52,487 nucleotides of DNA from Gammaproteobacteria bacterium (GTDB taxonomy: Bacteria; Pseudomonadota; Gammaproteobacteria; SZUA-152), in the NCBI GenBank assembly GCA_029882975.1, contig JAOUJW010000036.1, positions 1 through 52,487 of the forward strand, read 5' to 3'. Position 1 is the stretch's first letter. Each line of letters starts with the position of its first letter. Below, in pieces: positions 8,741 through 35,822 of this stretch. A model generated the notes under the pieces. It had not been told where the DNA came from, ran no database searches, and saw nothing but the letters and a program-made list of their open reading frames with translations. Position numbers and translations under genes: made by a program.

Positions 8741-8753
8741 GAGGCGGTACTCA

Positions 8754-9751: not shown

Positions 9752-9866
9752 CAGCTCTTACAAATTCTTCGTATTCTGTCCTCTGACTAAAAAATAATCA
9801 ATATATAGTGCTGCTATAACTAATTTGACACAAGATATACGGTGGGCGCAAAGCAAGTCAAGCGAA

Positions 9867-10298
9867 ATGTGATAGGTCAGTACTCACGTTATCATCAAGT
9901 ATGACAGGGATGTGATAAGTCAGTAAGCAACATTCGGGGTTTTAAATACACATCGGCTTAATTCGCTGGAGTAAAAACCGCTTAGAGTAATTAGTCAGAA
10001 ACGACAAATTGGGATATATATCTTTTGTGTCAGTACTTATTATGACTACAAAAAAGGACATGCCACATAAAGTATTGAAATACCTATCAATAAAGAAATG
10101 GAAACAACTACATTTCACCGGGATAACGGAATGAAATACGATAAACAACGACAGAATGGGATCATGTTAAACACAAAAGTATCTATCTATTTGAATAGAT
10201 TAGCAATATCTTTTAATACGGAAAGGGATGTAATAAGTCAGTAGAGAATCGACCGCCAAATGGACTAAAAACCGCTTCTGGGATGTAATCGGTCAGCA
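9867..10298 (+). repeat. oriV: Four iterons upstream of trfA: candidate oriV
   Basis: Four same-strand 16-mers of the form ATGTRATARGTCAGTA lie at 9867-9882, 9910-9925, 10228-10243 and 10283-10298 (the last is the most divergent, ATGTAATCGGTCAGCA). The intervening 300 bases are AT-rich and contain the inverted repeat atctatttgaatagat at 10185-10200. Iterons before a TrfA-family gene are the expected origin of replication and copy-control site. No convincing DnaA box was found within the array. Confidence 0.8.
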
Positions 10299-10334
10299 GG
10301 TTAGGTGAAACATTGCTTGACTATGATACAAAAC

Positions 10335-10346
10335 GCAATATATTGC
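10335..10346. promoter_or_regulatory. Palindrome in the trfA promoter
   Basis: gcaatatattgc is a perfect 12-bp palindrome 29 bases before the trfA ATG, in the position of a promoter-overlapping operator. The core resembles the caatatatattg palindrome before the transfer operon at 47184-47195. Confidence 0.5.
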
Positions 10347-10374
10347 TCATAACACATAACTAAGGGGTAGGACG

Positions 10375-11205
10375 ATGACCGATAGCTCTACAGAGCTTTT
10401 GGAACGCAGTACGGAATCTGATAAACCTATCAAAAATGTGCACACAGACAACACCGTTGTCTTACAGTTACCAATCTGGCCAGAACCTTCACGCGGTATC
10501 CCTAACACCATAGCACGATCGGCATTGTTCAACGTACGGTTTAAGAAAACGCTTAGGCGACAACTAAAAAATCACATTGTCACCGCAATAAAAGGAACGA
10601 ATATCCTATATACCGGTGAAGAGCTACGCCAGGATGATGAAACGGTATTTCTCCAACTGCTACATTATGCCAGGCTAAAGCCCTGGGGCGAATACATCAC
10701 TTTTAAACCCTCAGATTTTTTAAAAAATATTGGATGGCCTGTCAGTGGCCAAAACCATTACAAAAGACTCATCGAATGCATGGATCGGTTAAACGCAAAT
10801 GGGCTCAAAATACAATCCTCGAAACCGAAGATAAACTACAACGGTTCATTGATAAGGAAATTCGTATACTTCGATGAAGAAAAAGAGAAAAATCTGCGCG
10901 AGTGGATCGTATGGATTGAGCCGGAAGTCATCAAACTGTTCGATTCTGAGGATTACAGCCAGCTACACTGGGAGCAAAGGCTAAAACTGAAAAAACCTGT
11001 TGCCCAATGGCTTCATTCATTTTATACAAGTTATGAAGAACCAATGGAAGTAAAGAGTATTATGAAAATGAGCGAAGCGGCCACCAAGAAACTGAGTGTG
11101 TTCAGAGCAACATTGAAAAAGTCGCTCGATGATCTTGTGAAAGTCGGGTTTATTAAAGGGTATGAAATAGATGCAAATGACAAAGTGCATGTAAAAAAAG
11201 CGTAG
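10375..11205 (+). CDS. trfA: TrfA-family plasmid replication initiator
   Basis: The 276-aa protein carries the TrfA signature LPIWPEPSRGIPNTIARSAL at about residues 51-70, followed by the winged-helix initiator fold (ILYTGEELRQDDETVFLQLL, later RLKLKKPVAQWLHSFYTSY). TrfA proteins of IncP-like broad-host plasmids bind iterons and recruit the host helicase. A ggggtagg ribosome-binding site precedes the ATG. It stands alone behind four iterons and a 12-bp palindrome. Length is near that of the short TrfA form, so it should be intact. Confidence 0.9.
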   Translation: MTDSSTELLERSTESDKPIKNVHTDNTVVLQLPIWPEPSRGIPNTIARSALFNVRFKKTLRRQLKNHIVTAIKGTNILYTGEELRQDDETVFLQLLHYARLKPWGEYITFKPSDFLKNIGWPVSGQNHYKRLIECMDRLNANGLKIQSSKPKINYNGSLIRKFVYFDEEKEKNLREWIVWIEPEVIKLFDSEDYSQLHWEQRLKLKKPVAQWLHSFYTSYEEPMEVKSIMKMSEAATKKLSVFRATLKKSLDDLVKVGFIKGYEIDANDKVHVKKA

Positions 11206-11271
11206 AGATCCCTCTAAACCACAGAATATCGAATACAAAGTGTGAAAATCCTCAACCCAAGCAGAAACGGT

Positions 11272-11302
11272 TCATCGATCCGTTATGGCCTTTCTCAAGC
11301 AA
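11272..11302. repeat. 31-bp duplicated fragment of the 112-aa gene
   Basis: The core catcgatccg-(t/c)-tatggcctttctcaagcaa is shared with the inside of the 112-aa gene at about 16944-16974. Only this short block is repeated, so it looks like a scar of a larger duplication, recombination or deletion between the two places. The surrounding 11206-11469 holds no gene that could be recognised. Confidence 0.6.
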
Positions 11303-11469
11303 GCATGAAAATAAATCCAGATCCGCCCCGTATTATTGTTAATAGGGGGTTCGGCCACGATTCGCGTAGAATGCAGCCACTTCTCACGTAACTTTATGAT
11401 ATTTAATAAATATAATTGACGGTGTATTTTTCGATTTACTTATTTTCAGTGCAGCAAAAACAATGCGTT

Positions 11470-11508
11470 AGGGGTTCTAGGGAATTTCCCTCCAAATATT
11501 GCATAGCC
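11470..11508 (+). repeat. Possible Tn3-family terminal inverted repeat
   Basis: A ggggttctagggaatttccc element begins about 130 bases upstream of the transposase-like frame at 11602. Tn3-family ends start with GGGG and are about 38 bp, so both position and start fit. No matching partner end was found. Confidence 0.35.
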
Positions 11509-11601
11509 CTCTGAAACGCCCGTCGTTATTGGGCTGTAGCGATGGAATTGTTTTCATTTTACACCAGATAGGGTATCTTCTCCGGCCTTTTAGGCCGATA
11601 A

Positions 11602-12087
11602 ATGAACAAAAATAAACGAATTTCAATTCTGAACCAGGCGGAAATTGAAGACCTATATGGTGTACCGGATTTTAATCAGAGTTATCAACAGTTCTATTTT
11701 GCTCTGAACGATCGAGAGTGGCATAAAATCAGCCAGTTGCGAGATAAAAAGCTTCAATGTGTCGCTGTTGCTTTGCTCGGATATTTCAAGTGTAAACCGA
11801 TCCTTTTAAGTCCCAATTACCTGCAAATGCATCCCGACTTAAGGTTTATTGCAGAACAGCACTTTGGAGGCTTTAAGTTCCGCCGATTCAAGCTGAAGCC
11901 TGATCAGAAGTCTCGGGTCTATGATCGTGTTCTTAAGATATTGGGCTATGCCAATTGGAAGGATAAACTGCATCAATCCCAACTTGTCGATCATCTGCTA
12001 AATCAAGCAACGAGTTGGGCGCATCCTCGTTTCCTGTTTGACGCTTCGATCGAATATTTGTCCACTCACAAAATCGCGATTCAGTGA
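11602..12087 (+). pseudogene. tnpA: Tn3-family transposase, N-terminal fragment
   Basis: The 161-codon frame corresponds to the N-terminal DUF4158 domain of Tn3-family transposases: ILNQAEIEDLYGVPDFNQSY, then VALLGYFKCKPILLSPNYL. Complete transposases are about 950-1,000 aa, so the catalytic DDE part is missing. The frame runs out just as the second parA begins (12084), showing a deletion or recombination that joined the two. It cannot be active. Confidence 0.85.
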
Positions 12088-12755
12088 TATCACAGAAAGG
12101 TGGTGCAGGGAAAACCACGATGACGATCAATCTGGCGGTAGCAGCTGGGATGGATGGAAAAACCTCGGCAATAATAGATATAGATCCGCAGGCATCCGCC
12201 GCAGAATGGGGCGACCAAAGGGATGCAGAAAACCCAGTTATTATTTCATCGCAGCCATCCCGACTGCCACATGTTATGCAGGAAGCCAAAGAACAAGGTG
12301 TCGAGGTTTTATTTATTGATACTGCGCCGCATTCAGAAAAATCCGCCTTAGATGCTGCAAGAGCAGCCGATACTGTCATTATTCCAACTAGGGCCGCGAT
12401 TCTCGATTTATTGGCAATCAGTAAAACCATTGATTTAATCAAAATAGCCAAAGCAGATGCCTTTGTCGCCCTTAATGCAGTGCCACCCCGAGGAAGCCTA
12501 AGTGGAGAAGCCAAAGAAGTCGTAAACGCTCAGGGGTTGGAGATCGCGCCAGTCCTAAGCTACCGCCACGCATTTTTTCATTCGCTGACAGCAGGGCAGG
12601 GTGTTATCGAGTATGAACCGGAAGGTAAGGCAGCAGAAGAGGTCGCACAGCTTTACCTGTATACATGTCAACATGTTGGCATACCAACCGATTTAGAAGC
12701 AATAATTAGGAGTACGGAAAATGCCGAAGAAAACCTCATTAGCGTCGGCGCTTAG
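12084..12755 (+). CDS. parA: ParA-family ATPase, 5' end clipped
   Basis: A 223-aa ParA-like protein starting at GTG with ISQKGGAGKTTMTINLA at its very start, so the first beta-strand that normally precedes the Walker A motif is reduced to two residues. The rest is intact: IDIDPQASAAEWGDQ, LFIDTAPHSE (Walker B) and IPTRAAILDLLAI. No ribosome-binding site precedes it and no upstream in-frame start exists before a TGA at 12039. It overlaps a downstream RHH gene by 35 bases. The protein may be poorly made, or be rescued by translation through the transposase fragment. Confidence 0.8.
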   Translation: MISQKGGAGKTTMTINLAVAAGMDGKTSAIIDIDPQASAAEWGDQRDAENPVIISSQPSRLPHVMQEAKEQGVEVLFIDTAPHSEKSALDAARAADTVIIPTRAAILDLLAISKTIDLIKIAKADAFVALNAVPPRGSLSGEAKEVVNAQGLEIAPVLSYRHAFFHSLTAGQGVIEYEPEGKAAEEVAQLYLYTCQHVGIPTDLEAIIRSTENAEENLISVGA

Positions 12756-13023
12756 CGGGGCTGCTAAAAATCGTCCGGCTCCAAAAGAACAAATCGTGGA
12801 GCCGGTGAAAGAGAAAACAGTCAGAGAACAGGTCGTCGTTGTAAATAAACTGCCTGTCCCTCCAAGCAGGGTAGGAAAAAAGGCGGTGACAGGATATATC
12901 GAGCCGGAAGCACAGAAACAGCTTAAACAGATCGCCCTGGAAGAAGATACGACAGTCCAGGAACTATTTAGAGAAGCGATAAATGATTTGTTTGTAAAAA
13001 AAGGGCGAACGCCATTGGCCTAA
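12721..13023 (+). CDS. RHH partner of the second ParA
   Basis: The 100-aa protein has an unstructured basic N-terminus and a C-terminal ribbon-helix-helix segment (GYIEPEAQKQLKQIALEEDT, then VQELFREAINDLFV). ParA plus small RHH protein is the type Ib partition arrangement, in which the RHH protein binds the centromere and represses the operon. An aggag ribosome-binding site lies inside the end of parA. This is a second partition cassette on the molecule. Confidence 0.8.
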   Translation: MPKKTSLASALSGAAKNRPAPKEQIVEPVKEKTVREQVVVVNKLPVPPSRVGKKAVTGYIEPEAQKQLKQIALEEDTTVQELFREAINDLFVKKGRTPLA

Positions 13024-13032
13024 AAAGCCAAC

Positions 13033-13086
13033 ATGACAACAAAACAACATGATGCCATTGAAACGGCGAATGAAGTCATAAAGTAA
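13033..13086 (+). pseudogene. 17-codon frame after the RHH gene
   Basis: An ATG ten bases after the RHH stop opens MTTKQHDAIETANEVIK and then stops. It reads like the first residues of a protein whose remainder has been lost, in keeping with the patchwork nature of 11.4-13.8 kb. It is too short for any assignment. Confidence 0.25.
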
Positions 13087-13109
13087 ATCGAAAAATGATA
13101 TCATATCAG

Positions 13110-13682
13110 TTAGGTTGGGGAGTCAGACAAAAATAGTGGCAATAAAGTATTGTGAAAACTCGCTTTGTCATCTTCAAACGTAATCATATCTTGTATATCG
13201 ATCGATGCGTCTATTTTCGTTAATAATACCATTTCATCGTTTTCTGGTCTCGCTCGAAGATTGACCTTTACTGCGCTGTTATCACTATAGTTGGTTTCGA
13301 TATATTCTAATATAAGATCTAAAGCTTGGCTTGATACGGTTAATCCAAATGCTTTAACAAATGAATATTTCTCGGCACATTTTCTTACGAGTATATTTTG
13401 TACTTTTTTTGTGGCGTTACTACCGTCATCGTATATCAATAGATCTTCTAATGCAGAGTAATACTCTATGCACTCTGCTCTGCGTTTAATGAAATGCGTT
13501 TGTTTTAAATCAAGCAGTCGTATGATGTTGAATTTTACGCGTTCCATTTGATCCCCTTTTCGTGCGCCTAATTCACCATTATTTTTCAATATGAACATAC
13601 GCAAAACATCGTGAGAATGATCCGACCAATCTATTATTGAGTTGCCGCGGTTGTAACGGTGCCAAATCCGATTACCATCCAA
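13110..13682 (-). pseudogene. Hypothetical protein, probably 5'-truncated
   Basis: About 190 codons of good protein character (KRRAECIEYYSALEDLLIYD; VKAFGLTVSSQALDLILEYI) with a TTG as the first listed start at 13682. The same frame stays open and protein-like up to 13775 (RSRPLVCRSLENLDYRFSPY) without any ATG or GTG, ending at a TAA. The natural N-terminus therefore appears to be missing. No family was recognised. It may still be translated from TTG. Confidence 0.5.
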
Positions 13683-22611: not shown

Positions 22612-23223
22612 ATGCTTGTAGGATACGTCCGTGTTTCAAAAACTGATGGTTCCCAAGTTCTGGACATGCAATTGGACGCCATGAAGAAAGCCAAGGTGAA
22701 ACCTAAGAACATTTACCGGGACAAGGCCTCTGGCAAACTGGATAACCGGTCAGGCCTTGAGGCCTGTTTGAAGGCGCTCAGGCCCAAAGATATATTGGTG
22801 GTCTATAAGCTGGACCGACTTGGACGAAGCCTTAAGCATTTGTTGGAGACCATCGAGAATCTGACGGAACGGAAGATCGGGTTTAGGGTGTTGACCGGAC
22901 AGGGGGCTAAGATCGACACCACCACGCCAAGTGGTAAGTTGGTTTTCGGCATATTTGCGGCTCTTGCAGAGTTTGAACGAGAGTTGATTGTAGAGCGAAC
23001 CAAAGCTGGCCTGGCCGCAGCGCGTGCAAGGGGCAGGGTAGGTGGGCGTAAGTGCGAACTCAGTAAATCTCAAGTGCGTTACTTGCAAGCAGCCATGAAA
23101 CGACGGGATACGGTCGTGGCGGATCTCGCTGAGGAAATGGGTGTCACACGTGCTACACTTTATCGATACGTTGGCCCAAAAGGGCAACTGCGGGAGTATG
23201 GGAAACGGGTTTTGAAGAAATGA
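22612..23223 (+). CDS. Serine recombinase of the resolvase/invertase family
   Basis: The 203-aa protein has the resolvase catalytic domain: YVRVSKTDGSQVLDMQ with the nucleophilic Ser at residue 9, LVVYKLDRLGRSLKHL, and EFERELIVERTKAGLAAARA, followed by a C-terminal HTH (VVADLAEEMGVTRATLYRYV). It is full length for a Tn3-type resolvase or invertase and may resolve plasmid multimers. No res site was identified. An aaaggaaa ribosome-binding site precedes the ATG; the stop overlaps the next start (ATGA). Confidence 0.93.
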   Translation: MLVGYVRVSKTDGSQVLDMQLDAMKKAKVKPKNIYRDKASGKLDNRSGLEACLKALRPKDILVVYKLDRLGRSLKHLLETIENLTERKIGFRVLTGQGAKIDTTTPSGKLVFGIFAALAEFERELIVERTKAGLAAARARGRVGGRKCELSKSQVRYLQAAMKRRDTVVADLAEEMGVTRATLYRYVGPKGQLREYGKRVLKK

Positions 23224-23858
23224 ATACGCAATCAAATAAAATTATCCGCACTCCAGAACAACAGGGCCACGCAAGTCAAGTCTACGATAATTATCGTAGC
23301 GACCTCCTTAACAGGAGCCTATCGAACACGGAAAACTATGATAAAACAATTATCACATTATCTGCGGCAACCTTGGGTTTTTCAATGATTGCAATTAGAT
23401 ATGTTGTACCCTTAGAATCGGCGGAATACACATACTTGATTCAACTGGGCTGGTTTATGCTACCAACTTGTATTGCAGCTTCACTAGTCGCCTCCCTCAT
23501 CGGCAACAAAGCAATCGACGTACAATTGGAGAACGCAAGGAATTACTACATTGAGGGTGAACAAGATGCGCTAAACAGGAAAAACATATATACAACAATA
23601 AACAAGTACCTAAATATATTTACTGGCATCGCATTTTTGTCAGCTCTTTTTCTTATAATTATATTCGTAACTGTTAACATCAAAAAGGAAACCGACATGG
23701 GTAAAGATAAATTCGATACAACTGATATACAAGGAACGCCTGTAAAGAAAAGTGCAGACATACCAACGATGGAACAAGTGCCAGGAACTACTCCCAATCC
23801 TCAAGGCAACAATAATGGGAACCAAACAAACAATAGTGGTAAAAAGCCAAAAAAATAG
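23220..23858 (+). CDS. Membrane protein with a detachable C-terminal tail, 212 aa
   Basis: The start overlaps the recombinase stop. Four transmembrane segments are predicted (about 45-62, 70-90 and 125-150, with SATLGFSMIAIRYVVP and ALFLIIIFVTVNIKK), then a hydrophilic tail with IQGTPVKKSADIPTMEQVPG and an Asn/Gly-rich end. The topology recalls small membrane effectors such as SLATT-type proteins, but the family is not confirmed. The tail also appears as a separate short gene at 23971-24147. Confidence 0.6.
   Translation: MNTQSNKIIRTPEQQGHASQVYDNYRSDLLNRSLSNTENYDKTIITLSAATLGFSMIAIRYVVPLESAEYTYLIQLGWFMLPTCIAASLVASLIGNKAIDVQLENARNYYIEGEQDALNRKNIYTTINKYLNIFTGIAFLSALFLIIIFVTVNIKKETDMGKDKFDTTDIQGTPVKKSADIPTMEQVPGTTPNPQGNNNGNQTNNSGKKPKK
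23697..23858 (+). CDS. Possible internal translation start producing the tail alone
   Basis: An in-frame ATG inside the membrane-protein gene is preceded by aaaaaggaa (23683-23691), a good ribosome-binding site. It would give a 53-aa product, MGKDKFDTTDIQG then TPVKKSADIPTMEQVPG, equivalent to the neighbouring 58-aa gene. This is inferred from spacing only. Confidence 0.35.
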   Translation: MGKDKFDTTDIQGTPVKKSADIPTMEQVPGTTPNPQGNNNGNQTNNSGKKPKK

Positions 23859-23970
23859 ACATCCTAATTCGACCCGCTAGTATGTATTAGAAGATAACTA
23901 TTGGTTTTCCTTGCCACCTGACTTTTCTGTTCGGGTCAGGTGCAGTATTATCTATTTCGTTACTAATAAT

Positions 23971-24147
23971 ATGGATAACCCAATGACTAAAGAAAATATC
24001 GAAATTACAGAATTAGAAGGAACACCACTAAGAGAAAGCGCGAATATACCAACGATGGAGCAAGTACCTGGCACGTCACCAACTGATACTCAAGGTGATG
24101 ATAATACGAATAACACAAACAACAACTGTAGCGACTCAAAGAAATAG
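23971..24147 (+). CDS. 58-aa homologue of the membrane-protein tail
   Basis: This short protein contains LEGTPLRESANIPTMEQVPG and an Asn/Asp-rich end, closely matching the C-terminal tail of the upstream 212-aa protein. It has no membrane segment. The ribosome-binding site is weak. Free-standing copies of a tail peptide could be substrates, ligands or decoys; the role is unknown. Confidence 0.5.
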   Translation: MDNPMTKENIEITELEGTPLRESANIPTMEQVPGTSPTDTQGDDNTNNTNNNCSDSKK

Positions 24148-25036: not shown

Positions 25037-25786
25037 TCAATTAGACGGTTCTGCGTATAGTGATTTACCCGCTATATCGATATCCATGTACTCGTAAATA
25101 TTATTGTAGGACAAAAACTGGAATTCGTTGTGCAGTTTGTTTATAGCCTCTTCGTCAGTAATTTTAATTCGTGATTCATAATTTTTCCAAAAACCTGCGT
25201 TTGTAAAATTAACAGACCCTAAGTAGGCTTCATTATCATCAATAAGGAATATCTTTGCATGAACGAGAGAATGTCTGGAATTGAAGCCTTTCCCAGAATA
25301 TGGTGACATCGGTATACTTAGACAGAATTTCGAACCGTACGTGTACCAATATATTGTTAAACAATTCAGAATCCGCAATCCTACGTAGAGAAATGGGAGC
25401 AGCATCACTGAGTAGTAAAAATAGTAAAGCTTATAACTAAAACCAATCGCTAATACAATTAGGACAAGGAACACCAATCCCAGCAAAATCCAACGCCACC
25501 TGTCACGCGCAGATTTAAGATATTCCTTAGTATGCTGCGTTTGGTAGATTAATTTTCTAAGACATTTATCGACATTGCGCTCCCCTGTTAGATCCGAACT
25601 GACAATCAACCGAACATCTACGCCATCCTCTACTTTTCTGTGTAACAAATCGACGAAATCACTGGATATATACGGAGATACTATTTTGACTGAAACTTTA
25701 GCGGACTGAATACTGTTAAGTATGTCGCGGCCAGCACCACGGCCAATATAAAGGTCACCATCCGATAGTCTACAATTATCTAGCAT
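25037..25786 (-). CDS. Phospholipase-D-like protein with a membrane hairpin
   Basis: The 249-aa protein has a PLD-fold N-terminus (IQSAKVSVKIVSPYISSDFV) and one HKD motif HAKIFLIDDNEAYLGSVNFT (H176, K178, D183, G190, S191, N193). Two hydrophobic helices (about 99-116 and 122-143) interrupt the domain. A single HKD implies a dimer or a degenerate second motif. PLD-like proteins can be nucleases or phospholipases. It follows the JAMM gene by 54 bases, so it could be an effector of the conjugation system; that role is inference. Confidence 0.75.
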   Translation of the reverse strand: MLDNCRLSDGDLYIGRGAGRDILNSIQSAKVSVKIVSPYISSDFVDLLHRKVEDGVDVRLIVSSDLTGERNVDKCLRKLIYQTQHTKEYLKSARDRWRWILLGLVFLVLIVLAIGFSYKLYYFYYSVMLLPFLYVGLRILNCLTIYWYTYGSKFCLSIPMSPYSGKGFNSRHSLVHAKIFLIDDNEAYLGSVNFTNAGFWKNYESRIKITDEEAINKLHNEFQFLSYNNIYEYMDIDIAGKSLYAEPSN

Positions 25787-25840: not shown

Positions 25841-26395
25841 TTAACAGTCATTCAAAATAATAACTTGTTTCAACTCTTCCGATTCTTTTCCTACAAACCA
25901 TTTTTCTTCATCTCGAATATAGTCCACCACATAACCAAGACTATAGGGATGGTGGAAGAAGTGTTTTTGTGTATACCGGTCAGTACCACTAAAAAAAGCA
26001 CCGAGATTGGGGTGGCTGTGATACCAACCAACAATAGTATTGCCGTCCACTAATAATTCTCTTGCCTTATTCCATACATCGGTCCCCATTTCCAAGGAGA
26101 CATTGGTAGAGCGACATTCATCGCTTGGGACAGATTCAGTTATTTCCACCAAAACATAGTCACGTTTTAAAATGTGAGACTCATAAACCTTCCCAACAAG
26201 TAAACCACCCATTTCCATTGAATCTTGTTTTAAATGATTGTGTATCTTGTCCCTGACACTGTGGTACACGATAGGAAGCGGTGCAAATACCAACATCCGG
26301 GCAATTCGAGCAACATCTACAACAGGCAAACTGTTCAGTCTAGTGGTAACATCTATTGCTCGGAAGTCCGGTTCCATCGTTTTCCATTGGATCAT
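25841..26395 (-). CDS. JAMM/MPN-family (JAB1-like) zinc isopeptidase
   Basis: The 184-aa protein has the full JAMM motif: glutamate in SMEMGGLLVG (E61) and HSHPNLGAFFSGTD (H126, H128, D139 with ten residues between H128 and D139). Such enzymes remove ubiquitin-like proteins or trim their precursors; in bacterial Ubl systems they act as the deconjugase. The ATG overlaps the E2 stop by four bases (ATGA), showing co-translation. It is expected to process the Ubl C-terminus or reverse conjugation. Confidence 0.88.
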   Translation of the reverse strand: MIQWKTMEPDFRAIDVTTRLNSLPVVDVARIARMLVFAPLPIVYHSVRDKIHNHLKQDSMEMGGLLVGKVYESHILKRDYVLVEITESVPSDECRSTNVSLEMGTDVWNKARELLVDGNTIVGWYHSHPNLGAFFSGTDRYTQKHFFHHPYSLGYVVDYIRDEEKWFVGKESEELKQVIILNDC

Positions 26396-27024
26396 GTTGC
26401 CATCCTGAAAACCGAACCGCAGCTAGGACATGTGATATTAAGAGTTTTACCAGCGGGTACACGCAGTGAAGCGGAACACTTATCACATGACACAAGAGTT
26501 TTACCGTCATTGGTATCACTTTTCCAAACTACGGAATTATTGATTCCCTGAGTTTCCACAAAAGAAGCGGTGGGAAAATACGTAGGGTATTGCCTAATTG
26601 CTCGTTCGTACCATTTCAATGCAGGAACGTTTGCAGGCGAACTCTTATTTAATATTGTCGTATCGAATATTAGAATCTTGATTATCCTTTTTATCAACAA
26701 ATCCATACCGTGAGATGGCATCCATTTTGTTCCAAAGCATATTTTTCCAGTGCCGTAAACATTCGGATGAAATATTGGAGTTTTTATCGTCACCGCTGGT
26801 TCAACAAACGGATACCGCCCCAGAATACTAATATCCACTTCCGTTGTATCCTGAATCTTCTTGGGATAACTACTGGATGGCGCTGTCTGGTAGTCCAACC
26901 GTAGAGATATTCTGTTTATCGGGCTACCGCTAGTAGACAACAATTGAACTTTTCCATTCGTTGCACGCCCGAGATCCTCTATTTTTGAAATATCCAGTTT
27001 CAAACGATTACTTAGGCCATTCAT
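26392..27024 (-). CDS. E2-like ubiquitin-conjugating enzyme with C-terminal zinc ribbon
   Basis: The 210-aa protein has the UBC fold with YPFVEPAVTIKTPIFHPNVY, then the canonical GKICFGTKW, where C96 is the predicted thioester-forming cysteine. HPN (86-88) and the Trp downstream are conserved. A zinc ribbon follows (CDKC...CPSC, about 180-205), which is not part of standard E2s and may bind a substrate or partner. The ATG overlaps the stop of the Ubl gene (ATGA). It would receive Ubl from the E1-like protein and pass it to targets. Confidence 0.88.
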   Translation of the reverse strand: MNGLSNRLKLDISKIEDLGRATNGKVQLLSTSGSPINRISLRLDYQTAPSSSYPKKIQDTTEVDISILGRYPFVEPAVTIKTPIFHPNVYGTGKICFGTKWMPSHGMDLLIKRIIKILIFDTTILNKSSPANVPALKWYERAIRQYPTYFPTASFVETQGINNSVVWKSDTNDGKTLVSCDKCSASLRVPAGKTLNITCPSCGSVFRMAT

Positions 27025-27275
27025 GAACCAGCCACCAATACGGGCTGGATCTCAAGCACTGCTCCGTCCTTAACGCCATTCGCATTTAATGTGTTCGCAG
27101 GAACAATAGTCTTGCTTGTTGTCGTATCAACCAGACTATAATCAGTATCCGTGGGCAACTCCCACTTATCAATGATCGCCTGCAGGATATCCGCGCCGGT
27201 CAACTCATCCGCCACTACCATTCCATCTTTTTTGGTTTTATCGGCATTTTTTACTATCAGTTCTATCTCACTCAC
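27021..27275 (-). CDS. Ubiquitin-like protein
   Basis: An 84-aa beta-grasp protein starting at GTG behind an ideal ggagga ribosome-binding site. It reads IELIVKNADKTKKDGMVVAD then SKTIVPANTLNANGVKDGAV, ending VLVAGS. A small single-domain Ubl fits between an E1 and an E2 in the same operon. The end is Ala-Gly-Ser rather than Gly-Gly, so the JAMM protease may remove the last residue or the chemistry may use Gly83 directly. The fold is assigned from size, pattern and context. Confidence 0.8.
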   Translation of the reverse strand: MSEIELIVKNADKTKKDGMVVADELTGADILQAIIDKWELPTDTDYSLVDTTTSKTIVPANTLNANGVKDGAVLEIQPVLVAGS

Positions 27276-27277
27276 AA

Positions 27278-28402
27278 CTAATCCTCCAGCTCAATTATAA
27301 AGTGTATATCGTCTGCATCTAACGTCAGGTACTTACAAGGCATAATTTGTCCTCTATGATGTTGAAGCAATTCTTCCACTGAAAAACTATCCTTGATATC
27401 CACAACAACGGATGCCGTGGTACAATGTTTACAAACTAGTAGACTCGAATCATAGTCGCTTGCAAGAGACAATTGTTTAACGTCATCACCGTGCTCATTA
27501 TTGCAGTTCTCACAATAATGGCTGGTGAGAATTGGGTCGCTGGTTTGCAAATACAATTCACTATTCGAAATGTCCAAACTTCCGGTCAGGGTCTCATCAA
27601 TCGTTCGGCTTGACGTAAGATAAATAGCTTTATTGTCACGGGAACTACAGGAAAAACACGCTTTATTCCTAGTAATTTCACTGACTGACGATACGCCGGT
27701 AATACTGTCAAGTAATACACGCCTGGCCGTGGAGTTGTCGTCACCATCGCCCAAACGCAACGCTGTAGATGTTGCCAAAGCACCGGCCATACTGGACGTA
27801 ACAACAGTAGTAGGAATAGTCCGGGTCTCAAAAGACACTTTCTTCAGCCATCCGCACGAATATCGCTCGCTTTCCCTTTGATAAACACTATCCGGTAGAG
27901 TGTATTCATAACAAGCAGAATCGTCACCTTTAGAAAAAGGGTAGATTTCACAAACAGCAAAACGGCTATCTATTGCCGTGTTGACCAAATCAACAGACGC
28001 CACCATGCAAAGCTGATTCAGCCGTATTCTGGCTTCAAAATTATCGACGCAGCATATAACAACATCAAAGAAAGCAAGTTCCTTAATAGGGAGGGTATCC
28101 CAAAAATCTCCCTCATATTCCACGACAGTTACGTTAGGATCTAATTCCCGGACTCGTTGTGCAGCGACATGGACTTTACTCTGCCCAACGTCCGAGTCGC
28201 GGAATAAGACACTACGGGTTAAATTGTGTTTCTCTATCGTATCAAAGTCGAATAGAACGATTTTACCTACGCCCAGTAACGTAAGGTTTTTAGCTACCTC
28301 ATTGCCAATGGCACCACAACCCACAACGCCAACGGTCAGTGAGTGCAATTTCTCTTGTGAAAACCAATCAATAAGGTTATGCCGGTTGTACCTTTCATCC
28401 AT
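27278..28402 (-). CDS. E1-like (ThiF-fold) Ubl-activating enzyme
   Basis: Started at MDERYNRHNLIDWFSQEK, the 374-aa protein has an adenylation domain with VGVVGCGAIGNEVAKNL (GxGxxG at 28-33), FDFDTIEKHNLTR and CCVDNFEARIRLNQ. YSCGW (C183) is the likely crossover-loop catalytic Cys, by comparison with MoeB/ThiF. Zinc-binding pairs occur at CFSC (249/252), CENC (297/300) and CKHC (324/327). The start overlaps the J-domain gene end by eight bases. It should adenylate the Ubl and hand it to the E2. Confidence 0.9.
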   Translation of the reverse strand: MDERYNRHNLIDWFSQEKLHSLTVGVVGCGAIGNEVAKNLTLLGVGKIVLFDFDTIEKHNLTRSVLFRDSDVGQSKVHVAAQRVRELDPNVTVVEYEGDFWDTLPIKELAFFDVVICCVDNFEARIRLNQLCMVASVDLVNTAIDSRFAVCEIYPFSKGDDSACYEYTLPDSVYQRESERYSCGWLKKVSFETRTIPTTVVTSSMAGALATSTALRLGDGDDNSTARRVLLDSITGVSSVSEITRNKACFSCSSRDNKAIYLTSSRTIDETLTGSLDISNSELYLQTSDPILTSHYCENCNNEHGDDVKQLSLASDYDSSLLVCKHCTTASVVVDIKDSFSVEELLQHHRGQIMPCKYLTLDADDIHFIIELED

Positions 28403-28643
28403 TGTAGTAGTCCAGAAGCTTTTTATAAGCCTGATTGAGAATTTTAGAAATCTCTTCGCCATAATCCTTCATGAACTCATCACTTTTATCCGGATGGTAC
28501 AGCTTTATTTTTTTCCGATACATCCGCTTTACCTCATCTAGTGATGAATCTTTCGTCACTCCTAATAGCTCAAAAGGCGACATATTTCGCATTTTCTCAA
28601 TGTTAGATTCGTAATCCGGAGTTAATTTCTTCCATTTAATCAT
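28395..28643 (-). CDS. J-domain (DnaJ-like) protein, 82 aa
   Basis: MSPFELLGVTKDSSLDEVKR then YRKKIKLYHPDKSDEF is a full J-domain with the HPD motif at residues 50-52; nothing else is present besides a short N-terminal tail. J-domains stimulate Hsp70 ATPase, so this small protein may bring DnaK to the conjugation machinery or its substrates. The ATG overlaps the stop of the OB-fold membrane gene (TAATG), and the protein ends inside the E1 gene start. Confidence 0.88.
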   Translation of the reverse strand: MIKWKKLTPDYESNIEKMRNMSPFELLGVTKDSSLDEVKRMYRKKIKLYHPDKSDEFMKDYGEEISKILNQAYKKLLDYYNG

Positions 28644-29470
28644 TAGCTGACACCCAGAATCATAGATTTTCGATAGACAATAATTTCATACCCAAATATC
28701 TCGTGATTAACCACCAACCCACGTACTTTAACCTTTTTTGATTTGAGTGACCTAATATAATCTACACCCCCGACATGTTTTATGGATCCGGAAAAAAATA
28801 CCAACTTGAACCCTTTTGTCCACGACTTATTTTCAAACATAACAGCATAGTCACTACCTCTTTTGCTTTCCTTCACCTCATGGACCAAGCCTTCAAAGGT
28901 AACCACTGATCCAATATAGTTCTTGTAATTCCTCAAAGTGACAACATCCGGTGTAAAGTCTGTACCACCGGTGGAATTACTGCGAATAAAGCGAGCGATG
29001 TTAACGGTATTACAACAAACGCACTTGGATTCGTTCATTTCCTTTACTACGAGAAAACTTTCCTCGTGGTAGAAAACACTGCATTTCATACACTGGAAAA
29101 GGATTCGGTTTTCATCCACCGGTTCGCCCGAGAATGCGTCGTGTAATCCCTCTAATTCGTCGTCAGGGACAATAGATCCTGTGCCTGAGGACATGTCAGG
29201 TGTAGTGAAAACTATCTTCGATGCACTGTTAGAGCGCGACGAATTAGGCCGGTATACGGTGGAATTACGCTCTGTTTTACCTGTACCTTGATGTCCAGGT
29301 GGGTACGAGTGACGAGAATGCGTTTGCTGAGATACTCTTGATCGGGGATTCGGTTGCGACGGAGGGCGAGACGGTTTGAAAAACGCTACTATTTTCCCTA
29401 GTAATTCAATAAGTACAGACAACGCCCAAAATAATAGAAAAAGCCCTACTATTGATACAATAAGTTCCAT
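28643..29470 (-). CDS. Membrane-anchored zinc/OB-fold-like protein, 275 aa
   Basis: One transmembrane helix at 2-25 (IVSIVGLFLLFWALSVLIEL) is followed by a Ser/Pro/Arg-rich linker, a zinc ribbon (CMKC...CVCC, about 126-152) and a C-terminal OB-like domain (about 175-270: GSVVTFEGLVHEVKESKRGS; SKKVKVRGLVVNHEIFGYEI). The OB assignment is by pattern only (tRNA-anti-like). It heads the operon that continues into the J-domain, E1, Ubl, E2 and JAMM genes. It could anchor the machinery at the membrane. Confidence 0.65.
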   Translation of the reverse strand: MELIVSIVGLFLLFWALSVLIELLGKIVAFFKPSRPPSQPNPRSRVSQQTHSRHSYPPGHQGTGKTERNSTVYRPNSSRSNSASKIVFTTPDMSSGTGSIVPDDELEGLHDAFSGEPVDENRILFQCMKCSVFYHEESFLVVKEMNESKCVCCNTVNIARFIRSNSTGGTDFTPDVVTLRNYKNYIGSVVTFEGLVHEVKESKRGSDYAVMFENKSWTKGFKLVFFSGSIKHVGGVDYIRSLKSKKVKVRGLVVNHEIFGYEIIVYRKSMILGVS

Positions 29471-30265: not shown

Positions 30266-33196
30266 TTAAGGAATAATAACTGAGCCGTCTTGCGGCGGTA
30301 GAATGTAACAGTCGATTCTACCGCTGTTATTGGAGGAACCGGACATCCAGTACGCCGGTGAGAAAGTCACATCGTTCGCATAGTTATATATTCTAAAGTA
30401 GATCTGAGAACCTACCGCGAATACTGGGTCACGTTCTGACGTGGACGCTATAGTCTGAATATCAAAGGCAGCATTACTCGAAGCGTTATCAGACAGTGAT
30501 GTTGTAATATCGCCCAGCAACTGGTTTGGACCTGGAAGAACCGTTGTACGCCAAACCTCGACTTTCGATATCCGACTCAAGCTGCCAGAAAACTCTCCAG
30601 TAACACGACAGGTTGTCGTATTAACGTAAGTAAATGTGAAATCTGCAATACCAGGCGCTGGGTTAGATATCACAAAAGGTACAATTAACTCTGTCGTCAA
30701 ACCGGACGTGTCGGTTGCCACTGCACGTAGCGTGTGATCACCATCATCGTACGATGTTGTAAATATGGTGGATATTGGATCAGTGAAATTAATAATGGTG
30801 TCGTGTAGGTTACCATCAATAAATAATGCCAAAGACTCGACGCCTAATGAATCCGACACAGTAGGTATCAAATCAAACAACTCTGAAATAGATTGCCCAG
30901 ACGTCAAATTCAAACTCAGTTCGGGCGGTGTTGTATCAGAGATAAACGAAACCTCTGCCACGGTCTCAAAGCCCATGGAGTCAACCGCAACGACTTTGGC
31001 CAAGTGAGGGCCGTCTGTTAACGGCTGGACATTCACCAATGCGGTCGGAAGCACCGTGTCATCAACCATATACGTAGTGGAAACAATAGGTGTGGTGTCT
31101 GTGATATCAGCAGCTATCAACAGATCCAGTGTATGAATCGAATCGACAACCGGGTTCGTGATGTTCACTGCGGGTCGAGTGGTATCAACTGTGATACTCA
31201 CTGCCGCACTATCCTGATGGCCTGCGAAATCTGTTGCAGCCACGGAAATGGAATGCACACCATCTGTCACTCCACCTAATGCAATAGTATTCGATGACTG
31301 TAATTCTCCATCGACAAAATACTCCGTAGTTTCAACACCAATTGCATCGGTAATTGTCGCCAGTATGTCGAAATCCGCTGAGTGATAACTGTTAGCCTCC
31401 GGAGAGTCAATAACGACCGTGGGTGGATTATTATCGATGCTAATATCCAACGAATGCACCGTATTATTACCCGCCGAGTCGGTCGCGCTCAAAGCCAAAG
31501 TAGCTGCCGAATCGCTTTCCGCCGTTGTATTGAAATTATACGGTGGCAATGGTGAACTGAAATCCGTATACGTGTTTAGCGCTGAACCATTGAGTAATAG
31601 CTGAACTCGATTTAGCTGCATATTGTCGAAGACATCTAACTGGATAGAGGCCTGGCCGCTTAAATAGGCACCGTTTGCCACATTCGGGATACTAGCGGTC
31701 GGGTTGGTATTATCGACCGTGTAATTGACCGCGCTTGGCGTGTCAAAACCAACGCCATTAGTAGCCAATACCCGGAAATTATGCACACCATCAGTGAATG
31801 CACTGCTGTTCACCTCAAATAATGGTGAAGTCGCACTGGTCGCGGTCGAATGTAGGGAATCATCAACATACAACGATGTATTGTTAATGCCCAACGGGTC
31901 GTTGACATCGGCAGTGAGATTGAAAGTGCCGCGCACATAGGCACCGTCAACAGGATTAATGTTCGAAATCGTTGTTCGACGATTAGCGAACGTCACATTA
32001 ATATCGACAGTAAATTCACCATTAAACGCATTCGTAGCAACGATAGACAACGTATGACCACCATCTTGATACGAAGTGGTGTCTAATGTATGCGACACAG
32101 GATCGCCGTTGGTGAACACCTGTAAGTCATTGTTGTCGATTTGCAGTACGACGCTATTGAGGCCAAATACATCGGATACGTCCGCACTGAACACAACCGC
32201 ATCACCTGATAGCACCTGGTCTGCGTTAATGGAAATATTCGTAATCGTTGGTTCTGTTGTATTAAGAGCGACCGGAGGTGTCCCGCCAAACATAGTGTCA
32301 CCAGAATTGTTCCAGGCTTGCCCAATATTAAACAAGTCTGAGGAATCCAGTCCGGTCAAATTGCGAGTAGAGTTAGCAATAGTAAACATATTTTCCACAA
32401 GAACATGTCGGTATGTTTCTGTAGTCATCGAGATCGAACCCATATTTAACATACCGGATTCGGCTTGTCCGTTCAAAACACCATCATACCTAATGTCTTC
32501 ATACGCTTTTTGTGCAAAAAGAATGCTATTGAAAAAATCATGAGGACTAGGCTCAGAGTTCATTTCGCTTATATACATGGTATATTGCGAGATTGATGCT
32601 GTTGCAAAACCGTAAAGGTGTCCAGGAGTGGTGAACGGCGTAGCATTCTGTATTGCAGTAATATCAATCGGTGTAGTTCTCAGAATATCTAACTCTAGTA
32701 AAGTACCAGCCCTAGTATTAGCTCTGTTAATCGCTTCTTCTACGCCCATACCAGTACTAATCAGATATTCTGCTAAACCACGTGCTATATTTGTAAAATA
32801 TGTAATACTACTGGTGATTGGTTCGCCAGCGTACATCTGAACCACACATAATTCATCATTTTGACCCAAAAATACATTAGCATCTGATGCTTCTTCAATG
32901 TAATGAGCACCACTATTCCCGTCTGTACCACTAATACAAATCATAATAGGACCGTTAGGCGATTGCACATCTAGACTATACAATCCTGCCTGATCCGTAG
33001 TACCAGATCCTATAAGGTCCCCACGAATACCACCATCAAACGCATAAACAGAAACCTCTCCATCAAGTATCAGACCATCAAAAGCTGTACCGGATAGCGT
33101 TACAACAGGTCTCTCTGGTGACACATTACCATCCCCACCACTATCGCAACCGGCGATTAATAGAATGACTGCACTAAGAAAAACTAACCATTTCAT
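30266..33196 (-). CDS. Large Ig-like-repeat lipoprotein, 976 aa
   Basis: The start at 33196 has a ggggga ribosome-binding site; MKWLVFLSAVILLIAGC carries a lipobox. A unique N-terminal domain is followed by several Big-like repeats of about 85-95 residues, visible as recurring DNTNPTASIPNVANGAYLSG, DNNPPTVVIDSPEANSYHSA and DTTRPAVNITNPVVDSIHTL. Large Big lipoproteins on IncHI plasmids are surface-exposed and affect conjugation. It is paralogous to the neighbouring 853-aa protein and belongs to the transfer operon. Confidence 0.85.
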   Translation of the reverse strand: MKWLVFLSAVILLIAGCDSGGDGNVSPERPVVTLSGTAFDGLILDGEVSVYAFDGGIRGDLIGSGTTDQAGLYSLDVQSPNGPIMICISGTDGNSGAHYIEEASDANVFLGQNDELCVVQMYAGEPITSSITYFTNIARGLAEYLISTGMGVEEAINRANTRAGTLLELDILRTTPIDITAIQNATPFTTPGHLYGFATASISQYTMYISEMNSEPSPHDFFNSILFAQKAYEDIRYDGVLNGQAESGMLNMGSISMTTETYRHVLVENMFTIANSTRNLTGLDSSDLFNIGQAWNNSGDTMFGGTPPVALNTTEPTITNISINADQVLSGDAVVFSADVSDVFGLNSVVLQIDNNDLQVFTNGDPVSHTLDTTSYQDGGHTLSIVATNAFNGEFTVDINVTFANRRTTISNINPVDGAYVRGTFNLTADVNDPLGINNTSLYVDDSLHSTATSATSPLFEVNSSAFTDGVHNFRVLATNGVGFDTPSAVNYTVDNTNPTASIPNVANGAYLSGQASIQLDVFDNMQLNRVQLLLNGSALNTYTDFSSPLPPYNFNTTAESDSAATLALSATDSAGNNTVHSLDISIDNNPPTVVIDSPEANSYHSADFDILATITDAIGVETTEYFVDGELQSSNTIALGGVTDGVHSISVAATDFAGHQDSAAVSITVDTTRPAVNITNPVVDSIHTLDLLIAADITDTTPIVSTTYMVDDTVLPTALVNVQPLTDGPHLAKVVAVDSMGFETVAEVSFISDTTPPELSLNLTSGQSISELFDLIPTVSDSLGVESLALFIDGNLHDTIINFTDPISTIFTTSYDDGDHTLRAVATDTSGLTTELIVPFVISNPAPGIADFTFTYVNTTTCRVTGEFSGSLSRISKVEVWRTTVLPGPNQLLGDITTSLSDNASSNAAFDIQTIASTSERDPVFAVGSQIYFRIYNYANDVTFSPAYWMSGSSNNSGRIDCYILPPQDGSVIIP

Positions 33197-33260
33197 TGTT
33201 ATTCCCCCACTATTATTGAAATCATCATCCATGAATCAAATCCTTTTACGTATATTGAAA

Positions 33261-35822
33261 TCAGTTACTAATCGTTACATTCACATCTGCGGAATTGACT
33301 AAATCCGAGTTATCCCATACTTTTACCGTAAATACATGTGGCCCGTTAAAAAATGAGTCGCTAGTAAAGCACATGAAAGGGATATCTTTGTTCGGCGGAT
33401 AACTCAGATGTAGATCGTCTATCAAATACTCGACTATTCGGATTCCAGCAAGATCAGAAACAGCAGCTCTAATACAAAGAGTACCGCTGATAACACTACC
33501 TTCGGTTGGCGCTGTGACTTCAACCGACGGCAAAGTATTGTCGATAAACACCGTCACCGAATCACTGTTTTGCAAACCGGAAGTATCGGTCGCTTGAACC
33601 TCGATGTTGTAATTACCATCCGCGTAATCCGTCAACACAATGTCTGGAGACGCTAAGGCCTGGCCATCAATGGTCATCGATGATGAAGCGATACCTTGTG
33701 AGTCCGAGATATCGGCGGTAATGGTAAAATTACTGGTTAAAAAGCTGGCATCCGTCGGATTAGTAATCGACACAGTAGGAAGCGTGGTATCAAATGTTAC
33801 CGCAATGCTGTCGTTACCCTCATGCCCAGCATCATCGAAGGCCTTGACCGTCACGTTATGTCCACCGTCTGCAAACAGAGACGGATCAACCGTCGCACTG
33901 GACAGTAAAGTGGTATCCACGTAGTACTCGGTAGAAACCACGCCCACGGTATCACTCGTGTTCGCAGTAACAGTGAAACCGGCAGTGGCCACGCTGTTAG
34001 TCACTGGATTAGTGATATTCACCACCGGCGGATTATTATCGATTACTACATTGGCAGATGCGATGCGGTTATTTCCCGCCAGATCATTGGCCGTAACCGC
34101 CAACACATGCTCGCCATCGGGAAACGCCGTTGTATCCAATGAATACGCCATAGGATCACTAAAAGTAGTAAAGCTTTGCTGGATTTCACCATCCAATAAA
34201 ACGCTCGCCTGGCTCAAATACGTGTCACTGACAGCAAATTGAATACTTGGCGAACCAATCAACGTATCCATATTATTAACATTGATCAATGAAGCATCAG
34301 GCAAGGTATTGTCGATGGTGTAAGTCACCTCATGGTCTGACGTAAAGTCCAGTCCATTCACTACCCGAAATCCGAATAGATACGAGCCATCAGCATTCAA
34401 CGTGCTATCAAACGGAACCGATGGGCTGGTCGTACCGATATTAGGATAGCGCACGGAATTGTTTATGATTCCATGCACGTTATTGATACCAAATGGATCG
34501 GAAACAGTCGCCGAAAAATCAAACGTCCCTCTCACATGAGTACCGTTCATGGGTAAGATGTTGGTCACGACGGTTTGTTCGTTATCAAACACCAGGTTAA
34601 TCGTCTGGTTGGTTTCATCCCCGAACTGGCTGACAGCGCGAACCACCAACGTGTGATCGCCCTCGGCGTATTGGGTGGTATCCAGGTCGTACGATAACGG
34701 TTCACCTGGCAGCAGACCATCCAGTAGCGCACCGTCCAAGCGAAACTCAACACGATCCAAACCGTAAATTGCGGTCACATCGGCACTGATTGTGGTCGTC
34801 TGAAATACCGTTTGTCCGTCTGAGACTGAGACATTGGTAATAATCGGTTCTGTACCACTAAAAGGCACTACCGGCGCACCGCCAAAGATGTCATCGGTTG
34901 CACTATTAATTCGCTCACCAAATCCCTTATAGTCAATCGCATCCAGGCCCGACACATTGCGGTCCGATGATACAAACACAAACAAATGCATGGCGATATG
35001 GTGCCGGTAAGAACTCACATCAATCGGCACCTGGCCGAAGCTCAACAAACCGGATTCACCTTGACCATTAAGCACGCCGTCGTAACGAATATCCTCAAAT
35101 GCCGTTTGTGAATAACGTAGCGAGTGGTAGTTTTGGTGAACTGGCGATTCTTGGTTTTGTTCGCTGACCGTTTGCGTGTATTGCGAAACAGCGGCCAAGG
35201 CCTGGCCGTAATATAATCCCTGGCTGTGCCGACTGGTTGCATTGGCAATATCGGTTGGATCCAAAGGTGGCGTCTCAACCGGGTTGGTGTTTATGACGCG
35301 GTAAACCGATTGTAATGAATTGGACAAAGCAATATTGGGCTGCATGCCGGTCCCGATCAAGTAAGCAGCTCGACTGTAAGCCAGGTGGGTAAAATGTGTA
35401 ATCTGTGCGGTATGAGAGGTTTCTCCGGAGGCCTCGACCATCGCGCACAGTTCGTCATTTGCGCTGACTACTACGTCTACACCGCTCGACTCTTCTGTAT
35501 AAGCAATATTGCTATTACCAGCCTCACCACTGGCGCAAACCAAAACCATCTGATCACTATCTACGTCACTCAAAGTGTAAGTACCCTGGAGATCCGAGCG
35601 CCCAGTAGCCAGCACATCTCCCCGGCTACCATTATCGAACGAATATGCGGTAACAACGGCATTACGAATGGCACCCAAATAAACGCCACCGGAAATTGTC
35701 GTTTTAACCACAGGCGGTGGATCGACGGGCGGCGGTGGTTGGTACGGTTCGTCGTTGTCGCAAGCAACCAACGCTGCTAGTACTAGCAGCCAACAACAAT
35801 ACTTAGCCTTAATAAGACTCAC
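33261..35822 (-). CDS. Large Ig-like-repeat lipoprotein, 853 aa
   Basis: The GTG start has a perfect ggaggtg ribosome-binding site inside the end of virD4 and overlaps its stop (GTGA), so translation is coupled to the coupling-protein gene. The lipobox LVAC is followed by a Pro-rich linker (PYQPPPPVDPPPVVK). Ig-like repeats with DNNPPVVNITNPVTNSVATA and DTTLPTVSITNPTDASFLTS fill the C-terminal half. The N-terminal domain is clearly related to that of the 976-aa protein (both share AFEDIRYDGVLNGQ-like stretches). A role in mating-pair contact is likely. Confidence 0.85.
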   Translation of the reverse strand: MSLIKAKYCCWLLVLAALVACDNDEPYQPPPPVDPPPVVKTTISGGVYLGAIRNAVVTAYSFDNGSRGDVLATGRSDLQGTYTLSDVDSDQMVLVCASGEAGNSNIAYTEESSGVDVVVSANDELCAMVEASGETSHTAQITHFTHLAYSRAAYLIGTGMQPNIALSNSLQSVYRVINTNPVETPPLDPTDIANATSRHSQGLYYGQALAAVSQYTQTVSEQNQESPVHQNYHSLRYSQTAFEDIRYDGVLNGQGESGLLSFGQVPIDVSSYRHHIAMHLFVFVSSDRNVSGLDAIDYKGFGERINSATDDIFGGAPVVPFSGTEPIITNVSVSDGQTVFQTTTISADVTAIYGLDRVEFRLDGALLDGLLPGEPLSYDLDTTQYAEGDHTLVVRAVSQFGDETNQTINLVFDNEQTVVTNILPMNGTHVRGTFDFSATVSDPFGINNVHGIINNSVRYPNIGTTSPSVPFDSTLNADGSYLFGFRVVNGLDFTSDHEVTYTIDNTLPDASLINVNNMDTLIGSPSIQFAVSDTYLSQASVLLDGEIQQSFTTFSDPMAYSLDTTAFPDGEHVLAVTANDLAGNNRIASANVVIDNNPPVVNITNPVTNSVATAGFTVTANTSDTVGVVSTEYYVDTTLLSSATVDPSLFADGGHNVTVKAFDDAGHEGNDSIAVTFDTTLPTVSITNPTDASFLTSNFTITADISDSQGIASSSMTIDGQALASPDIVLTDYADGNYNIEVQATDTSGLQNSDSVTVFIDNTLPSVEVTAPTEGSVISGTLCIRAAVSDLAGIRIVEYLIDDLHLSYPPNKDIPFMCFTSDSFFNGPHVFTVKVWDNSDLVNSADVNVTISN

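Follow-up and report, generated by a model that had tools for sequence, protein, structure and literature searches.

A stand-alone J-domain gene in one subclade of bacterial ubiquitin-like conjugation operons

Gene Organization of the Operon

The window, by which the whole stretch of DNA analysed is meant, covers 52,487 nucleotides from a gammaproteobacterium of the SZUA-152 lineage (contig JAOUJW010000036.1, assembly GCA_029882975.1). It carries an operon in which the genes for a membrane protein with zinc and OB modules (TM protein), a J-domain protein (J), an E1-like enzyme, a ubiquitin-like protein (Ubl), an E2-like enzyme, and a JAB peptidase follow one another in this order. The features concerned are the following:

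28643-29470, reverse strand: membrane protein of 275 aa, with a hydrophobic helix at residues 2-30, a zinc module, and an OB fold at about residues 180-275 (predicted model and profile comparison)
28395-28643, reverse strand: J-domain protein of 82 aa, with an ATG start (Pfam, predicted fold, and PDB profile search)
28623-28643, reverse strand: N-terminal tryptophan motif of J, residues 1-7, low-confidence or disordered in the model (alignment, AlphaFold2, and PSSM)
28488-28496, reverse strand: HPD codons of J, residues 50-52 (read directly from the sequence)
27278-28402, reverse strand: E1-like adenylating enzyme of 374 aa, with a ThiF fold (ThiF, 2.2e-42) and Cys183 in an invariant YSC stretch
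27021-27275, reverse strand: ubiquitin-like protein of 84 aa, with the C-terminus ...VLVAGS, weakly YukD-like (E 0.005, below the cut-off)
26392-27024, reverse strand: E2-like enzyme, with a UBC fold bearing HPN...C96 and a C-terminal zinc ribbon (UQ_con, 1.5e-10)
26515-26535, reverse strand: tryptophan-containing linker of the E2, residues 164-170, a possible copy of the shared motif (the PSSM did not pick the E2 of the window)
25841-26395, reverse strand: JAB/JAMM peptidase of 184 aa, with a tryptophan motif at residues 1-7 (Prok-JAB, 1.8e-11)
25037-25786, reverse strand: PLD-like protein with transmembrane segments, a possible extra effector, 54 nt downstream of the JAB gene and in the same direction

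The stop codon of the membrane protein gene shares 1 nt with the start codon of the J gene (TAATG), and the end of the J gene, with its stop codon, shares 8 nt (ATGGATGA) with the beginning of the E1 gene (ATG at 28402), so that the J gene is indeed wired between these two genes, as an earlier note on this DNA had proposed. Judged by its length, the Ubl consists of a single domain, and the E1 has one ThiF match. Residues C96 and N88 of the E2 are invariant in alignments of two and three sequences, and in related Ubls VLVAG either forms the very C-terminus or is followed by a few more residues, an ending that fits a putative trimming by the JAB peptidase. Searches of NCBIfam, PADLOC, and PHROGs gave no operon-specific model for the J protein, the membrane protein, the E2, or the Ubl of the window, and a promoter and terminator scan gave nothing informative.

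The PLD-like protein resembles DrmC of DISARM and other PLD proteins, and no tblastn match to its gene was obtained in the related loci. In one of these (L030), a gene with a PLD domain also lies downstream of the operon, differing in size from that of the window. Beside four operons of the J-bearing clade an additional small protein is encoded, about 76-115 aa long (L028:6827-7057, reverse strand; L030:10612-10815; L039:6766-6999; L046:3967-4314), which by eye carries the tryptophan motif at its end in three of the four loci and has no match in the window.

The J Protein

Residues 23-78 of the J protein match the Pfam DnaJ family (PF00226; E 1.3e-11, with 44.9 bits where 27.8 is the cut-off). 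An AlphaFold2 model based on an alignment of 14 J proteins from these operons (mean pLDDT 82.3) places helices at residues 8-20, 23-27, 35-48, and 56-81, which is the layout of a J domain, and the HPD tripeptide sits between the helices 35-48 and 56-81, i.e., helices II and III. Thus, the Pfam match, the model, and direct reading of the HPD at residues 50-52 all agree with the first description of this 82-aa frame as a J domain. Residues 1-7 have a pLDDT below 50, lie outside the J fold, and bear a conserved M-x(1-2)-W motif.

The best profile match of the protein among PDB sequences is DnaJ 2 (E 6.7e-10), the PDB matches being of the DnaJ type, and a Foldseek search with the model gave mostly J-domain structures among the best 50 of 177 matches, all of them weak (best E 0.02; none of the 177 at 0.001 or below). 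The protein is too short to hold G/F, zinc, or C-terminal client domains, and it scores far under the curated cut-offs of the DnaJ-type models of NCBIfam. HSP70 genes are present in the host genome, with none on the contig of the window.

The Membrane Zinc/OB Protein

The model of the membrane protein (mean pLDDT 80.5) consists of the N-terminal helix at residues 2-30, a disordered linker, a zinc module with C127, C130, C150, and C153, and a C-terminal domain. The best 50 of its 1051 Foldseek matches are OB folds, chiefly those of class-II tRNA synthetases, and they are uninformative on the zinc module. In profile-profile comparison this module matches proteins encoded near the Ubl genes of cyanobacterial relatives (E 1.7e-10), the conserved residues being only the four cysteines. 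Four of seven such cyanobacterial proteins match Prok-RING_1 at E values of 0.1 or lower, the best of them (8e-4) being below the cut-off, and a Pfam scan of five zinc proteins from the J-bearing clade returned no Prok-RING or zf-RING match. The sub-threshold Pfam matches in this clade include those to PHD (E 0.044, L045) and, on a separate zinc stretch further upstream, to IBR (E 0.0066, L046); the membrane protein of the window reaches E 0.053 with a variant PHD model and matches neither Prok-RING nor zf-RING. Its assignment as a RING-like E3 is reasonable but unproven.

Distribution and Conservation of the J Gene

Relatives of the operon were collected in GTDB genomes by an E1-alignment scan with two peptide patterns, from which the best 80 of 491 were taken. 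The close set, with the 21 closest operons found, is formed by the window, a second genome of the same class (G172), L029-L046, and L117, and the outer set (n = 63) by L047-L108 and a Crinalium plasmid. The idea put forward in the earlier note would fail if a J-domain gene rarely or never accompanied homologous operons. In this subclade the gene is present in 16 operons of the close set of 21 (the window, G172, L029, L030, L032, L033, L034, L036, L038-L041, L043, L044, L046, and L117), in the slot just before the E1 gene and mostly after the TM/zinc gene, and G172 repeats the order TM-J-E1-Ubl-E2-JAB of the window. It is missing in L031, L035, and L037, which represent one Porticoccaceae lineage and where a match to the TM protein was not found either, and in L042 and L045. 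According to record titles, the operons with J come from six phyla (Pseudomonadota, Chloroflexota, Fidelibacterota, Verrucomicrobiota, Thermodesulfobacteriota, and Bacteroidota), the records outside Pseudomonadota being metagenome-assembled genomes; the operon of L117 lies, in addition, on a prophage-type contig.

The HPD is intact in 15 of the 16 J proteins. The exception is the copy in L034 (7757-8002), in an operon otherwise open. Its reading frame is interrupted by a stop codon close behind the presumed start, and, taking into account this stop and the loss of the HPD, it looks like a decaying copy. The J protein of L046 is shortened. As regards the outer set, the J profile found no J gene in the DNA examined around any of the 63 E1 loci (from the best 80 of 491 relatives plus the Crinalium plasmid); E2 and JAB were detected beside the E1 in 50 of them, and a J gene farther off could be missed, since nine of these loci span less than 8 kb and 13 are without E2 and/or JAB.

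A tree calculated for 83 E1 proteins unites the 15 rows with J, without exception, in one clade of 20 rows (SH-aLRT 100). Four changes of J state are needed on this tree, which comes from a quick search, has several long branches, and does not contain L117, and the history of the gene may have comprised one gain and three losses.

A profile built from the operon J proteins that were later scored with it, L117 excepted, gave 117.5 bits in the window genome and 113.8 bits in G172 when run on 369 genomes of the class; the next match had 53 bits in a frame of 338 aa. The J protein of L117, from outside the training set, scored 116.8 bits. The E2 profile finds the same two of the 369 genomes, so that J and operon occur together, in what are only two cases. 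No further operon J was detected in 398 genomes of the phylum, a set that overlaps the former. Of the three genomes examined from the genus of G172 only G172 itself has the E1, which its two genus mates lack.

Two other origins of the gene can be discarded. A chance open reading frame is ruled out by the Pfam match, the fold, the conservation, and the recurrence of the gene at one position in 16 operons of the close set, and an ordinary chromosomal DnaJ copied nearby is ruled out by the scores of the two operon copies over the 369 genomes, where the five other matches above the threshold reach at most 53 bits in frames of 312-518 aa.

Plasmid and phage records were also searched. With the TM protein and with the E2 there was no match in plasmid records; with J the matches were mostly DnaJ-type or unannotated (best 40 of 82 records), and with the E1 mostly MoeB/ThiF-like (best 40 of 392 records). 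Of two plasmid E1 matches examined further, that of the Crinalium plasmid proved to be a real relative, and that of a Tenderia plasmid has no E2 or JAB match. In phage records the E1 matches were partial, MoeB/ThiF-like, or unannotated (best 10 of 49). A viral contig (L118) with a weak partial E1 match and without J was left out of the counts.

The gene overlaps are conserved as well, with the qualification that the start codons of several J genes, on which they depend, were assigned by hand: among the 13 operons measured, TM and J overlap by 1 nt or 4 nt in 12, the exception being L034, and J and E1 by 4-17 nt in 11 of 13, L036 and L038 having a 2-nt gap. The values for L117 (1 nt for TM/J and 17 nt for J/E1) are in line with the others. 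In four pairs of J genes dN/dS is 0.085, 0.115, 0.129, and 0.158, a fifth pair being saturated; the gene is under purifying selection.

Taken together, these data support J as a recurrent, position-conserved, and selectively maintained part of one subclade of Ubl operons. The idea of a J domain as a fixed component thus holds within this subclade, where 16 of the 21 operons of the close set have the gene and dN/dS is 0.085-0.158 in four pairs, but not for such operons in general, since no J was found in the DNA examined around the 63 outer E1 loci and the gene is absent from 5 of the 21 close operons.

Mobile and Defence-Related Surroundings

The contig of the window carries TrfA, ParA, a relaxase, and VirB4-, VirB11-, and VirD4-type proteins, on the basis of which it is regarded as a conjugative plasmid or a similar element. 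Defence genes were looked for among hand-picked genes beside 5 of the 21 close loci (L029, L030, L032, L039, and L117) and in the window, and they were present in four of the five flanks scanned (L029, L030, L039, and L117). Thus, L030 adjoins a QatA gene (E 3.4e-204), L039 a type III methyltransferase and a PDC-S11 candidate, and L029 HEC-04 and PDC-S28 candidates; in L032, the one flanking gene scanned is a tyrosine integrase. L117 (IMGVR_UViG_2521172724_000002) belongs to a prophage-type contig with terminase and P22-type portal genes, and its positions 1066-13503 hold a complete J-bearing Ubl operon between UmuDC-like genes and a restriction-modification pair of the BsuBI/PstI type. The third-position GC content of the L034 operon is 0.38-0.48, as against 0.60-0.76 in its flanks. 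These surroundings agree with a mobile, defence-type cargo, although they are no proof of it.

Three other regions of the window deserve mention. Positions 48438-50060 (forward strand) encode an AAA_15/AAA_21 ATPase, a further possible defence gene. Between the genes of the type IV secretion system (T4SS) and the Ubl operon, positions 30266-35822 (reverse strand) encode two very large lipoprotein-like proteins, the first with bacterial Ig-like repeats (Pfam) and the second resembling it by eye. At 23220-24147 (forward strand) there are two adjacent open reading frames with a near-identical C-terminal stretch (...GTP...SA(D/N)IPTMEQVPGT...), by eye an apparent duplicated tail.

Comparison with Known Systems

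RING-containing, YukD-like prokaryotic Ubl systems were reportedly described by Burroughs et al. in 2011. RING-type Ubl systems also appear in the available text of an eLife survey of 2020 and, separately from them, DnaJ fusions in GAP1-N2 systems (PMC7159879). The prokaryotic E1-E2-JAB-Ubl operons had been divided by Iyer et al. in 2006 into types that include 6a-6e (PMC1779556), in whose main text, in the version available, the words "DnaJ" and "chaperone" occur zero times each. These known operons share with the operon of the window the grouping of Ubl, E1, E2, and JAB, a mobile distribution, and a zinc-finger candidate for target recogniser or E3; the window adds the stand-alone J gene and the TM-zinc-OB protein, and its E2, with HPN before the catalytic cysteine, differs from that of type 6d as described in 2006.

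The anti-phage system BilABCD likewise combines a Ubl, an E1, an E2, and a JAB peptidase, the last exposing the C-terminal glycine of the Ubl; according to the available text (PMC11354881), there are two Ubl domains in BilA, a CEHH motif in BilB, and a pair of adenylation domains in BilD, unlike the operon of the window, with its one short Ubl, HPN-type E2, single ThiF domain, and additional J gene. Bub operons (Gong 2025, Ye 2026), known here only by their description in PMC13373217, are also bacterial ubiquitination-like and putatively immune. Stand-alone proteins made up only of a J domain with its HPD, as is the J protein of the window, occur in the DnaJ family, in the cold-adaptation ActJ model NF050028, and in a phage, as far as the available text of PMC3486835 describes it. 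Unlike these generic proteins, the J protein of the window is locked into an operon with E1, E2, JAB, and Ubl, and carries the N-terminal tryptophan motif. Among the papers listed in searches of the open literature, none was seen that describes bacterial Ubl operons with a J-domain component, although subscription papers could contain such a description.

A Tryptophan Motif Shared by Several Operon Proteins

With starts placed by hand, 14 J proteins of the alignment (n = 15) begin with M-x(0-1)-[KR]-W, the exception being L034, and so does the J protein of L117. The N-termini of the JAB peptidases carry [IM]-x-W in 20 of the 20 loci listed, and many E2 linkers or C-termini have a tryptophan or a phenylalanine at a similar place. 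The numbers obtained for this motif are descriptive, because it was defined after inspection, the homologues are not independent, and the start methionine adds to the scores of J and JAB. A PSSM trained only on JAB N-termini detected the motif of J in 9 of 11 representatives (p<=0.05, 500 shuffles each), the near-identical L033, L035, L037, L038, and L044 having been dropped beforehand, the divergent J of L046 lying outside the tested set, and the tested sequences possibly including up to 15 residues before the start. With the same matrix it was detected in 4 of 15 E2 proteins, in 2 of the 4 additional small proteins, and in a single membrane protein of 13, and in none of the controls (0 of 15 E1 and 0 of 15 Ubl).

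The regular expression [ILMV]xWx[DEN] was counted in 50 of the 63 outer loci, grouped by hand, with 13 omitted. In 16 cyanobacterial loci it occurs 95 times in the 21,752 residues encoded downstream of the E1 versus 50 times in 46,290 residues elsewhere; no such enrichment is seen in the 34 Chloroflexi/Planctomycetes and other loci (7 in 27,016 versus 69 in 119,648). We read it as a candidate docking motif, by which J, JAB, and E2 would bind one and the same receptor; this receptor may be the E1 or the Ubl, both of which are without the motif.

Possible Function of the J Protein

The genes, their order, overlaps, and co-occurrence, the fold of J, the conservation of its HPD, the purifying selection on the gene, a motif that recurs in several operon proteins, and a mobile setting are the data from which a function can be proposed. 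It is possible, and we put it forward tentatively, that J is a dedicated class-C co-chaperone subunit bringing the DnaK of the host to a Ubl-conjugating complex anchored in the membrane, where proteins bound by the chaperone, probably foreign ones, would be tagged. The JAB peptidase would trim the Ubl to ...VLVAG, the E1 would activate it and hand it to the HPN-type E2, and the membrane-anchored zinc/OB protein would act as a RING-like E3 or as a platform. The tryptophan motif in the disordered N-terminus of J would serve for docking on this assembly, and the HPD of J would recruit DnaK, whose non-native or assembling clients, most plausibly from a phage or another invader, would be delivered for tagging at the membrane, the JAB peptidase being able to reverse the tag. 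The HPD of 15 of the 16 J proteins favours a DnaK-dependent role, and the tryptophan motif may be taken to support docking to the conjugation machinery; the binding of DnaK, the docking and its partner, each enzymatic step, the nature of the substrate, and an anti-phage role are what this proposal would add to the data. Conjugation itself should need no J, because the gene is missing in 5 of the 21 close operons and in all 63 outer E1 loci. That J is kept by relatives in very different bacteria suggests that the Ubl machine works together with the chaperones of the cell.

Other roles have to be weighed against this one. J might be a sensor that couples the system to the DnaK cycle, a chaperone load or client state altered by a phage switching the Ubl system on and DnaK being the trigger instead of presenting clients. 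In favour of such a guard, and as a precedent for chaperones in defence, the phage sensing of bNACHT25 needs DnaJ with a functional J domain and fails with J-domain mutants that break cooperation with DnaK (PMC12169576); in addition, the J protein encoded by one phage binds DnaK (PMC3486835), in the available text of the respective papers. The defence genes in four of the five flanks scanned would also be in agreement, and so would the operons without J, if the gene is an optional regulatory part; however, no known sensor domain is paired with J in these operons, and the tryptophan motif that J and JAB share with some of the E2s points to a complex of constitutive type and not to upstream sensing alone. 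Such a sensory role is considered rather unlikely. There is still less reason to expect that J recruits DnaK in order to dismantle and recycle Ubl conjugates or E1-E2 or membrane complexes, by analogy with auxilin and clathrin: this would suit a J-domain-only protein docked to a complex with its HPD conserved, but several operons manage without it.

A role without DnaK, in which the J fold would be a small adaptor presenting the substrate or the E2 and the HPD would be kept for other reasons, appears improbable to the same degree. The J copy of L034, lacking the HPD, and the shortened one of L046 could be read in this sense, but the former looks like a decaying copy, and the HPD persists in 15 of 16 proteins across a deep divergence in which few other residues are invariant. 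As for a passenger that travels with the operon and has no role in the Ubl system, the mobile setting and the five close operons without J speak for it, but the conserved slot and overlaps, the purifying selection, and the shared motif make it very improbable. The presentation of clients by DnaK is favoured over infection sensing or the disassembly of complexes. A reading that goes further, a chaperone-coupled bacterial Ubl ligase in which J, the membrane RING-like protein, E1, E2, and JAB would be joined by an operon-wide tryptophan motif and would tag the Hsp70 clients of invaders, is rather doubtful. In its logic, such a ligase would have a eukaryotic counterpart in Hsp70-coupled ubiquitin ligation of the CHIP type.

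Significance and Related Observations

The coupling of Hsp70 to ubiquitin ligation is central to protein quality control in eukaryotes, and a Ubl operon with a J protein of its own makes it testable whether Hsp70 and ligation are coupled in bacteria and whether this has a role in immunity. A J protein of 82 residues offers clean point mutants (HPD and W4) and a defined set of partners. The shared tryptophan motif, if real, would give a handle on the assembly of these little-studied systems and could help to find missing components.

In four cyanobacterial relatives (L024:8474-12280, L079:10229-14115, L080:9896-13305, and L089:3228-6546), a further protein is encoded after the Ubl genes. That of L024 is annotated as a T4SS protein for conjugative DNA transfer (VirD4-like), and its equivalents in L079, L080, and L089 are similar in size and in the positions of the motif. 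Repeated LxWRD motifs are present at the C-terminus of this protein and in the products of the next genes in the four loci, hinting at a possible link between Ubl conjugation and DNA transfer.
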